Below, piece by piece: positions 23,560-27,180 of a stretch of 36,499 nt of DNA. Every line of letters begins with the position of its first letter. Position 1 is the first letter of the stretch. The DNA comes from Treponema sp. (GTDB lineage Bacteria > Spirochaetota > Spirochaetia > Treponematales > Breznakiellaceae). The position numbers and the translations under genes were made by a program. Below the pieces are notes generated by a model. It was given only the letters and a program-made list of their open reading frames with translations. It was not told the origin of the DNA and searched no databases. Location: NCBI GenBank assembly GCA_031282065.1, contig JAITEL010000060.1:1-36499 (forward strand), given 5' to 3'.

Positions 23560-24159
23560 TTAAAAATTAGTTAGGTAACATAGGCCGATGAGGAGTATGG
23601 CTTTCAGGCACTCTCTATCCACGGGACGGTCTTGGGTGAGCTTTTGCAACTGGCCAATCTGCTCTCCATACCACCAAAAGAGCCCCATCTGGGTATCAAT
23701 GCGAAAGGTATACTCGGTAAAGTCTTCTTTATGGCTTTGGGCGCCGAAGAACAGGTAGGCCAGTTCCTCCAGGATGCGGCTAAAATCCGTGAGGGCTTCC
23801 GCGTACTGTTCTTGTTCTATGGCAGCGATAAAGGGCAGGACGCGGTCTTGCAGCCGTTCTTTATAGCCTTCATCGTCCTTTGCAACCCAGGTCTTTTGAA
23901 TCAGCAGATCCAGGTTATTCTGAAAATGGTTGAGGAAATGAGGCATGGTATAATGCTCGTGAACAGGGGGGGTGTTGGCGCTGGAACCTTCCAAAAGGAG
24001 GGTATAATCCGAGGCTATCCCCAAAATACCGGCAAAAGCCTTGGCAGCCTGGATGCTTGGCCCGCCTTCTGGGGGAAATCCTTCGCATGGGAAGAGCGCC
24101 CGTGCGATCTGCCGGTATTCTTCAGGAACTTTAAAGATGCTGGGGGAACTACGTAACAT
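23560..24159 (-). CDS. Hypothetical protein, mostly helical
   Basis: No family was recognised in these 199 residues. The sequence looks soluble and helical, with a glutamate-rich middle (AIEQEQYAEALTDFSRILEE near residue 111) and an aromatic stretch (MGLFWWYGEQIGQLQKL near 158). No signal peptide or membrane helix is evident; the C-terminal ILLIGLCYLTNF is short and hydrophobic. ATG 24159 follows a perfect -35 (TTGACA) and a weak -10 by six bases, and there is no ribosome site. glnS lies 34 bases downstream and has its own ribosome site. Confidence 0.7.
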   Translation of the reverse strand: MLRSSPSIFKVPEEYRQIARALFPCEGFPPEGGPSIQAAKAFAGILGIASDYTLLLEGSSANTPPVHEHYTMPHFLNHFQNNLDLLIQKTWVAKDDEGYKERLQDRVLPFIAAIEQEQYAEALTDFSRILEELAYLFFGAQSHKEDFTEYTFRIDTQMGLFWWYGEQIGQLQKLTQDRPVDRECLKAILLIGLCYLTNF

Positions 24160-24324: not shown

Positions 24325-25041
24325 ATGAAAACAAACCCTACCAGCCCGTCCTGGGATCAGGTGGTCGCAGCCTTGGAAGCATGGCGGAAGGCCCTTCGGG
24401 AAGAGCCCGCCCGGGGGCAGGGTGCAGCAGGCCCCGGCTCAGAAGAACCGGCGGTCAGCACCGTGGCAGAACAATACAAGCGGGATCCCTGGGCCATCCT
24501 GGTTTCTACCATCATCAGCCTTCGTACCAAAGATGCCGTAACCTTGACCGTGTCCCAGGCTCTCTTGCAAAAGGCCCCGAATCCGGTACTTTTGGAGGCC
24601 CTTCCGGTGGAAGAAGTGGCCCGCCTGGTGTATCCTGCAGGGTTCTACCGGACTAAGGCAGCCAGCCTTAAGAAGATCGCCGGTATACTTATCGAACAGT
24701 ACCAACAGCAGGTACCGGCAACCATGGAGGAACTCCTGGCCCTTCCAGGGGTGGGGAGGAAGACCGCGAATCTGGTCTTGACCGAAGCCTTTGATCTGGA
24801 CGGGATCTGTGTGGATATCCATGTACACCGGATCAGCAACCGCCTGGGCTGGGTTACCTCAAGCACTCCTGAACAGACCGAAACCGCCCTGAGGGCGGTC
24901 CTTCCTCAGCAGTATTGGAAGGGTATCAATGCCCTGCTGGTGCTTTATGGTCAGCGCCTGTGCCGGCCGGTAAGCCCCTTCTGTTCCCGCTGCGTGATCC
25001 GGCCCTATTGTAAACGCCGGGGGGTTGAACGATCCCGCTAA
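24325..25041 (+). CDS. nth: Endonuclease III (DNA glycosylase/AP lyase)
   Basis: Nth removes oxidised pyrimidines in base-excision repair. The 238-residue product has the helix-hairpin-helix LLALPGVGRKTANLVL near residue 134, holding the catalytic lysine, the catalytic aspartate in CVDIHVHRISNRLGW near 162, and the iron-sulfur ligands CRPVSPFCSRCVIRPYC near 212 (C-x6-C-x2-C-x5-C). An N-terminal extension of ~45 residues rich in Gly, Ala and Pro precedes the catalytic core. TACAAC (24313-24318) lies six bases before the ATG, with no ribosome site. It converges with the sfsA fusion gene, six bases apart. Confidence 0.94.
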   Translation: MKTNPTSPSWDQVVAALEAWRKALREEPARGQGAAGPGSEEPAVSTVAEQYKRDPWAILVSTIISLRTKDAVTLTVSQALLQKAPNPVLLEALPVEEVARLVYPAGFYRTKAASLKKIAGILIEQYQQQVPATMEELLALPGVGRKTANLVLTEAFDLDGICVDIHVHRISNRLGWVTSSTPEQTETALRAVLPQQYWKGINALLVLYGQRLCRPVSPFCSRCVIRPYCKRRGVERSR

Positions 25042-25047
25042 GGGCTT

Positions 25048-26259
25048 TTAGGTAAGCCTCGCTCTATACCGCAGCAGCATCTCCACAAAGGCCCGGTTTC
25101 CCATAGGCGGGCGGGCCATATAAAAGAGATGGCTTTTACAGGAGCAGTCGGAACAGCCAAACCCGGGGATAGGCCGAGCCCCTAAGGCAGTAAGGCTTCC
25201 GGCGAGTTCACATTCCCGGTTTTGGTAGGCCATTATGGGCAGGGCTTTGATGGTCCTGCTATGGGGGGTGAGATAATCTATATGCCAGTGCGGGTGTTTT
25301 CGCACTTTTCGCAGGTGCCGCTTGATCCGGTGGGATAGGTTTTTTTGTGCAGACCCGGCGTACACATACCAGCCGGGGGCAAAGGTACGGGTACCCAGGG
25401 ACCCCACAGAAACGCTCTTTTCCTGGACTACTTCCAGGAGTATCAGGTAATTCCCCCGGTTGCTTTCGGCTAAGGCCCCGTGACTGAGATCCACCGGCAC
25501 ATAGGGAGCGGCCAGGACCGCCTCCCCTTGAGGCGTACACCGAAGCAGGCTGGCATGGATCTGTACGGTACCGGTCTTAGGCTGGAGTATCCCCGGGGTA
25601 TTCTGGCCTGGGGGCCCTGCGGCCACTCCATACCGGCTGAGCCCTGCGGCAAAGAGGGGATCCGTGTGCAGGTTTGGGATGAACACCCGGGGATCGCCAT
25701 GCATAATGACAAAGACTACATGCCCCCAATACCCCTGCGTGCTCAGGGCTGCCAGTTCTTCCAGATGCTTCAGCGCACGGGTACTGGGCGCATCGGGAAA
25801 CATAGCCACCTGGTTTTCCACCAGAGAACAGGCTTTCACCTCAACCAAATGGGGACGGTTTTCTGCATCCAGTCCCAGGAAATCAAAGCGGGAGGAACCT
25901 GCCTTATACTCAGGGTGCAGTTCCTTCAGGCCGGGGATAATCTGGTGCAGGATCAGGGCCTCTGCCGCCCGGTTGGCCCGGGATGCAAAAAGGGGAACCA
26001 CCCCGTTGCGGTAATAGAGTCCCCCTATGGTCCAGCTGGTCTTGGGCCGGGAAGAGGTTTTTGCTGAAGGGGCTTGCCCTCGTTTTTCCAGGATCAGCCT
26101 CAGCCCGGGAAAGAGGAATTCTATAAGCCGTCCTGGATTGGGGCAATGACAGGGCAGTTCCTCATCGCCGTCCCGGGTAATGATGAGAAAGCGGTTGGGC
26201 CGGGTGAGAAAGATCCCTTCCCGGTCATTGGTAAAAAGCCGTACCTGGTCCTTGTCCAT
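25048..26259 (-). CDS. SfsA-DUF123 fusion protein
   Basis: Residues ~1-245 are SfsA-like: FLTRPNRFLIITRD, PCHCPNPGRLIEFLFPG near 38, a core with SRFDFLG near 151 and HLVEVKACSLVE near 165 (E-x-K of a PD-(D/E)xK nuclease fold), and MFPDAPSTRALKHLEEL near 182. Residues ~285-403 match DUF123, a GIY-YIG-related domain: GNYLILLEV near 290, PGWYVYAGSAQ near 319, RHPHW-like HPHWHIDYL near 348 and a cysteine-rich FGCSDCSCKSH near 376. Either half alone is usually a whole protein. The N-terminal half is a possible DNA-binding nuclease, and the C-terminal half has lost or altered the tyrosine pair. ATG 26259 directly follows the exporter stop; AAAGG lies eight bases upstream. Confidence 0.84.
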   Translation of the reverse strand: MDKDQVRLFTNDREGIFLTRPNRFLIITRDGDEELPCHCPNPGRLIEFLFPGLRLILEKRGQAPSAKTSSRPKTSWTIGGLYYRNGVVPLFASRANRAAEALILHQIIPGLKELHPEYKAGSSRFDFLGLDAENRPHLVEVKACSLVENQVAMFPDAPSTRALKHLEELAALSTQGYWGHVVFVIMHGDPRVFIPNLHTDPLFAAGLSRYGVAAGPPGQNTPGILQPKTGTVQIHASLLRCTPQGEAVLAAPYVPVDLSHGALAESNRGNYLILLEVVQEKSVSVGSLGTRTFAPGWYVYAGSAQKNLSHRIKRHLRKVRKHPHWHIDYLTPHSRTIKALPIMAYQNRECELAGSLTALGARPIPGFGCSDCSCKSHLFYMARPPMGNRAFVEMLLRYRARLT

Positions 26260-27180
26260 CTAGGAAGCCTTTGCAAGACCGGTGATACGCTCCCACTGAG
26301 CCGCGACCATGCCGCAGAACATGCAGATGAAACCTAAAAGGGTCCATGAACCCAGGGGTTCGGCCAGGATGAGACAGCCCCCCAGGGCGGCAAAGACCCC
26401 TTCCAGACAGAGGATGATCGTGGCGTGGGCAGGAGGGGCATCCTGCTGGGCTACAACCTGGAGGGTATAGGCAATACCCACAGACGCTAAGCCGCCATAG
26501 AGCAGGGGAACCAGCCCCTGCACCACCGCATCAAGAGAGAGGGATTCCCGTGTCCCCAGGGCCAGGGCCAGGGAACAGAGACCGCACCAGGCAAATTGGC
26601 CTGCCGAGAGGATGAGGGGATCCACCCGTTCTACCAAGCGGTCAATCACCAGGACATGAAAGGCCCAAAAGATGGCCCCTACCGCGGTAATCAGGTCTCC
26701 CATATTGACGGACTGCATGTTCCCCCCGGTGCTGAGGAAAAAAAGCCCCGTGAGCGTACAGACCGCACCGATCCAGGTAGCCGGTCCGGTTTTTCTTTTC
26801 AGGGCAATGCCGAAGAGGGGGACCAGCACCACATACAGCCCGGTGATGAACCCGGAGTGTCCTGCGGTAGTGGAGAGTATCCCTACCTGCTGCAGGGAGG
26901 CGCCCATACAGAGACAGCTTCCGGCCAGCACCGAAGCCCCTATCCACAGCCCTTTCCCCGCGCTTTGGCTTTGCAGGGATGAGGATGTATCGGATTGAGG
27001 AAGGAGCTTTCTGAGGATAATAAGGGGGAGCAGGGAAAAGCTCCCCAGAATGAACCGTATCCCGTTAAAGGTAAAGGGGCCCAGGTATTCCATACCCGTA
27101 CGCTGAGCTACAAAGGCAAAACCCCAGATACAAGCGGTTACCAGCAAGAGCAGATCCGCCCGGATTGTGCGTTTATGCAT
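26260..27180 (-). CDS. EamA/DMT-family exporter
   Basis: The 306 residues form ten hydrophobic segments in two EamA repeats. The first starts LLLVTACIWGFAFVAQRTGM and continues FNGIRFILGS; the second starts near residue 155 (GDLITAVGAIFWAFHVLVI) and ends with PLGSWTLLGFICMF. Such proteins export metabolites or amino acids; the substrate is not predictable. TATGCT (27197-27192) lies 11 bases before the ATG and GAGGG lies in between, so a short leader is likely. The stop touches the start of the sfsA fusion gene, forming a two-gene unit. It is a second DMT exporter beside the broken one at 116-255. Confidence 0.9.
   Translation of the reverse strand: MHKRTIRADLLLLVTACIWGFAFVAQRTGMEYLGPFTFNGIRFILGSFSLLPLIILRKLLPQSDTSSSLQSQSAGKGLWIGASVLAGSCLCMGASLQQVGILSTTAGHSGFITGLYVVLVPLFGIALKRKTGPATWIGAVCTLTGLFFLSTGGNMQSVNMGDLITAVGAIFWAFHVLVIDRLVERVDPLILSAGQFAWCGLCSLALALGTRESLSLDAVVQGLVPLLYGGLASVGIAYTLQVVAQQDAPPAHATIILCLEGVFAALGGCLILAEPLGSWTLLGFICMFCGMVAAQWERITGLAKAS

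Follow-up and report, generated by a model that had tools for sequence, protein, structure and literature searches.

The DNA analysed here, which we call the window, is a stretch of 36,499 nucleotides from Treponema sp. (contig JAITEL010000060.1, assembly GCA_031282065.1). At 25048..26259, on the minus strand, it carries a gene of 403 amino acids with an ATG start in which Pfam, NCBIfam and a structure model reveal SfsA joined to a DUF123 domain. The N-terminal OB domain of SfsA (SfsA_N, 26026..26208, minus strand; residues 18-78; PF17746, E 1.1e-9) is followed by the PD-(D/E)XK nuclease domain (SfsA RE domain, 25633..25980, minus strand; residues 94-209; PF03749, E 8.6e-31), by the DUF123 or GIY-YIG domain with its His/Cys cluster (25117..25464, minus strand; residues ~266-381, with the PF01986 match at 292-380, E 3.2e-26) and, 3' of DUF123, by a C-terminal helix (25054..25095, minus strand; residues 389-402) that is found in most fusions. 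Directly upstream on the same strand, with zero bases between, lies an EamA-type transporter gene (26260..27180, minus strand; PF00892). On the other side is nth (24325..25041, plus strand; PF00730), an endonuclease III-like gene of a second Nth subtype that scores 172.5 bits against TIGR01083, below the cut-off of 211.7. The fusion and nth converge, with the six bases 25042-25047 between their stop codons, a spacing that a preliminary description made from the letters alone had given correctly. Between nth and a class I tRNA synthetase gene (E/Q type) there is an ORF of 199 amino acids (23560-24159, minus strand) with no match in Pfam or NCBIfam.

All three Pfam matches of the fusion exceed their cut-offs (38.6 against 25 bits for SfsA_N, 107 against 22.8 for SfsA RE and 92.1 against 25 for DUF123), and both halves proposed in the preliminary description are thereby supported in the profile search that had been set beforehand as a check. 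The catalytic residues are in place in the two halves, D126, E140 and K142 in SfsA (the ID-ExK of PD-(D/E)XK) and Y298, Y300, R311, H315 and E349 in DUF123, as is the His/Cys-rich C-terminal cluster of the latter (FGCSDCSCKSHLF, residues 367-379). The genome has a single DUF123 match and a single SfsA match, both of them in the fusion gene. Three fusions screened against the PADLOC anti-phage defence models matched none of the families, and a defence-system identity was dropped on this ground.

The AlphaFold model of the fusion protein has a mean pLDDT of 91.7 and a pTM of 0.89, and this whole-chain value implies that the two domains would be held in a defined mutual arrangement. The fold of the SfsA half is complete, since residues 6-258 of the model align with E. 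coli SfsA (4dap; Z 26.6, 1.9 Å, 227 of 232 residues), and DUF123 starts only a few residues past the end of this alignment. The P. furiosus SfsA-DNA complex (4dav) gives a Z of 25.9, and the next-best matches after SfsA are nucleases, such as EndoMS (5gke, Z 6.7). The window protein thus has in common with SfsA (COG1489, PF03749; 4dap from E. coli, 4da2 and 4dav from P. furiosus) the OB and PD-(D/E)XK domains, the D-ExK residues and the full-length fold, but differs in its extra C-terminal nuclease domain and in a score slightly under the cut-off of the NCBI equivalog for sfsA (TIGR00230, 115.8 against 126.45 bits), which other fusions exceed (e.g. 177.1 bits at locus L207).

With the isolated DUF123 model, GIY-YIG proteins take all of the nine best VIA-align places, in agreement with the kinship that had been proposed: I-TevI (Z 6.5, 2.9 Å, 82 residues), UvrC (4.3) and Slx1 (3.7), with unrelated folds from 3.5 down. 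These Z values are modest, and what carries weight is that all nine of the leading matches agree. The GIY-YIG fold is visible only in VIA-align; Foldseek returned nothing below E 0.001 for the isolated domain, its top rows being photosystem chains. The Y-Y-R-H-E residues and the His/Cys-rich cluster are shared with the COG1833/DUF123 family of GIY-YIG proteins, whose members, as described in PMC1564403, stand alone or behind endonuclease III, whereas DUF123 of the window stands behind SfsA.

Distribution and descent of the fusion

The fusion is present in 26 of 392 genomes of the window's phylum, in 46 of 395 of a second phylum (that of the Syntrophorhabdaceae genome G392) and in 3 of 389 from three others (1/131, 0/129 and 2/129). 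Since it recurs across many genomes, including several chromosomes assembled as a single contig, chance and mis-assembly both fail as explanations, and the fusion is genuine and no assembly artefact. DUF123 occurs in 29 of the 392 genomes of the window's phylum; in 26 of them SfsA lies in the same ORF, a count that includes L058, cut by a contig end, and L053, with a degenerate SfsA half. The second phylum has DUF123 in 106 of 395 genomes, the 46 with the fusion among them, and 3 of its 49 long DUF123 ORFs are without SfsA. When 80 loci were ranked by likeness to stand-alone DUF123, two proved to be SfsA fusions and 78 DUF123 ORFs without SfsA, and no separate SfsA gene was found in the available flanks of these 80. 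In the 72 genomes of the first two phyla that carry the fusion, SfsA is matched only once per genome, and the fusion is therefore the sole SfsA there. Separate DUF123 and separate SfsA genes showed no excess of co-occurrence (18/60 against 141/289; odds ratio 0.45, p 0.01, without kinship correction). SfsA and DUF123 appear together in no paper within the open-licence part of PMC, though a description may exist in subscription journals or domain databases.

A tree of 69 SfsA domains, which uses 19 of the 47 fusions from outside the window's phylum and omits X_L180, S_L058, S_L053, O_L141 and X_L187, places the fusions and their decayed kin all on one side of a branch (99/97), with the plain SfsA of both phyla opposite. 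One protein regarded as a possible decayed fusion, L180, was dropped: it groups with plain SfsA. A tree of 74 DUF123 domains, selected from a larger set, likewise has the fusion lineage on one side (94/91), although its bootstrap is not fully settled. The two trees fit about one fusion event. In a larger, quick DUF123 tree of 160 rows, from which D_L239 and S_L058 were omitted, four unfused rows fell on the fused side, namely L047 and L242, explained by the loss of SfsA in the one and of its nuclease domain in the other, L128, which starts 80 bases from a contig end, and L244, a long branch absent from the later 74-row tree. On the SfsA tree the fusions L048 and L054 of the window's phylum nest among those of the second phylum, and this mixing of phyla suggests that the fusion spread by horizontal transfer.

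Active sites and decay of either half

Residues D126, E140 and K142 of SfsA are present in 72 of 73 fusions, and R311 and E349 of DUF123 in 71 of 72, the one further protein (L058) being cut by the contig end; all eight listed DUF123 residues are intact in 68 of the 72, the exceptions being L221, L231, L238 and L239. These counts exclude the later-found fusions L254, L259 and L261.

Decay was observed in both directions. In seven proteins of the window's phylum (L176-L179 and L182-L184) the SfsA residues are intact and DUF123 is without E349 and nearly all its other catalytic residues, while their C-terminus is still recognisable as DUF123 by profile comparison of the group (Prob 99.1). Three C-termini of like length in the position of DUF123 (L174, L175 and L181) reached a Prob of 0.2 and were set aside, their kinship with DUF123 being unsupported. 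Conversely, L053:6740-7945(-) keeps DUF123 and has a degenerate SfsA half from which E and K are gone, and its sister (100/90), L047:7596-8042(+), has DUF123 and no SfsA. L047 is flanked by the same neighbours as L045, L052 and L053, which we take to be aroC-, IspA- and IspH-like genes, and this synteny shows that the SfsA half has been lost in L047. In L242 the start of the OB domain remains, as does DUF123, but there is no SfsA nuclease domain. Since either half decays while the other stays, the two activities appear, from these sequences, to be separable, and the seven relatives with SfsA and a DUF123 lacking its active site indicate that dual cutting is not obligatory. As a separate observation, the DUF123 matches G451:C25:5968-6225(-) and G471:C20:11265-11543(-) contain one in-frame TGA each, which may reflect a pseudogene, a sequencing error or recoding.

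Neighbouring genes and the link to endonuclease III

A comparison of 73 fusion loci found an EamA gene near the fusion in the window, in five relatives of its own family and at L241, and the transporter is a steady neighbour of the fusion in the window's family. The nth gene is not. It flanks only the window among the 29 DUF123 loci of the phylum, some of which have short flanks, and among the 73 SfsA-DUF123 loci it adjoins the fusion in the window and at L207 only, there on the same strand and about 29 bases upstream. When the window, the discovery case, is removed, one adjacency in 72 is observed against ~0.05 expected by chance (p ~0.05), a weak signal. Two other loci counted as nth neighbours by cluster, L205 and L213, were rejected, as NCBIfam ranks both genes as 3-methyladenine glycosylase-like. 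The preliminary description had read the convergent nth as support for a DNA-repair role of SfsA and had proposed a survey of such adjacencies; the survey bears out a recurrent SfsA-DUF123 fusion but no conserved nth beside it, and we rejected the adjacency as functional evidence. In three single-contig genomes of the window's family, the fusion and the second-type Nth gene lie 33 kb (G212), 56 kb (G194) and 1.86 Mb (G310) apart. The first two distances are shorter than chance (0.016 and 0.035), which tempers the rejection, so that the adjacency in the window may be a local rearrangement inside one region.

The 532 genes within four positions of the 73 fusions form no conserved repair operon and include only clade-specific neighbours. 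In one clade (L194, L195, L196, L197, L199, L201, L203, L206 and L221) the next genes after the fusion are of the phosphorylase-superfamily and DnaJ-like types, and several of its loci have SpoU-type and PUA-type methyltransferase genes nearby.

A link between DUF123 and endonuclease III, which the preliminary description had mentioned, was supported at the level of gene fusions. PMC1564403 describes the Nth-DUF123 fusions MJ0613 and MMP0538 in Methanococcales, and we found two more proteins, of 345 amino acids each and with both domains above the Pfam cut-off, in two genomes of another phylum, that of G399: L258:3334-4371(-) and L260:3328-4365(-). In these two the order of the domains is reversed, and the joining of DUF123 to Nth therefore happened at least twice, in opposite orders. 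This supports a functional connection of some kind between DUF123 and Nth, but not one that involves SfsA in particular, and the reversed fusions make the link testable. As in the SfsA fusion, DUF123 is joined in MJ0613 and MMP0538 to an enzyme that acts on DNA; there, however, the partner is a glycosylase/lyase and not a nuclease, and the fusion event is a separate one. The DUF123 of L258 and L260 also falls outside the SfsA-fusion lineage, while their Nth groups with that of the window in the second subtype (89/88). This subtype coexists with the standard one in many of 23 genomes examined; in the window's own genome nth alone matches Nth strongly, the other match being weak (44.8 bits).

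A probable two-headed nuclease

SfsA is widespread, and its metabolic name dates from old overexpression work. The sugar-fermentation label is probably misleading. The idea of a nuclease is not new, because SfsA was predicted as one already in 2005 (PMC1189080) and because the title of 4dav states that the structure was solved with DNA. E. coli SfsA is reported in PMC1189080 to bind DNA non-specifically, and the NCBI name is DNA/RNA nuclease. What the fusion adds is a second nuclease: a join made about once, present in several phyla and with both sites intact, ties SfsA firmly to nucleic-acid cutting. We favour, at a probability of about 0.55, the reading that the fusion is a two-headed nuclease, probably DNA-processing. 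The OB and PD-(D/E)XK domains of SfsA, tied through a short linker to the GIY-YIG domain of DUF123 with its His/Cys cluster, would bind nucleic acid with the OB domain and cut it, most likely as DNA, at two distinct active sites, leaving two nearby incisions or trimming nicked ends. A possible analogue in working mode, not in family, is UvrC, which also has two different nuclease domains per chain, one of them GIY-YIG; its second domain is RNase H-like (PMC8307549), against PD-(D/E)XK in the fusion, and its GIY-YIG domain is N-terminal, against C-terminal.

Three observations argue against a tight obligatory pathway: no conserved repair operon was found, either half decays freely, and the separate genes show no excess of co-occurrence. 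The last two observations also favour the view that the join was merely fortunate, two independent nucleases in one polypeptide each acting alone, with L047 and L053 having lost what L176-L184 keep and vice versa. We consider this doubtful, as the fusion has persisted in several phyla, nearly all its members retain both active sites, and the modelled domains appear to adopt a defined arrangement. A role in base-excision repair is plausible but unproven, and the convergent nth alone is no argument for it. In the form in which DUF123 cleaves at or beside endonuclease III breaks and SfsA makes a cut on the opposite side or trims, giving UvrC-like paired incisions, we think it unlikely: it would account for DUF123 and Nth being fused in both orders (in Methanococcales, as described in PMC1564403, and in L258 and L260), for the subtype shared by the Nth of these two proteins and of the window, and for nth adjoining the fusion in the window and at L207, but in the Nth fusions DUF123 is not of the SfsA-fusion lineage, 28 of the 29 own-phylum DUF123 loci have no nth near the fusion, the nth of L207 is of the standard subtype, and several lineages show decay of DUF123 without loss of SfsA.

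An RNA-processing nuclease, whose OB domain binds RNA and whose two heads trim or degrade structured RNA, is less probable again. The NCBI family name allows for it, and the RNA methyltransferase genes (SpoU, PUA-methyltransferase) next to the fusion are compatible with an RNA substrate too; yet this neighbourhood is confined to one clade, 4dav is a complex of SfsA with DNA, and the DNA binding reported for the E. coli protein (PMC1189080) points the same way. It is similarly a long shot that SfsA-DUF123 works in bacteria as an excision enzyme with two nucleases, in the manner of UvrC, and acts on what is left by the second endonuclease III, the Nth subtype that adjoins it in the window and is fused to DUF123 in L258 and L260. 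If true, this would make SfsA a base-repair nuclease and not a sugar regulator. For the two-headed nuclease that we favour, the lineages missing one active site are natural mutants, and a guide to which activity is worth assaying first.
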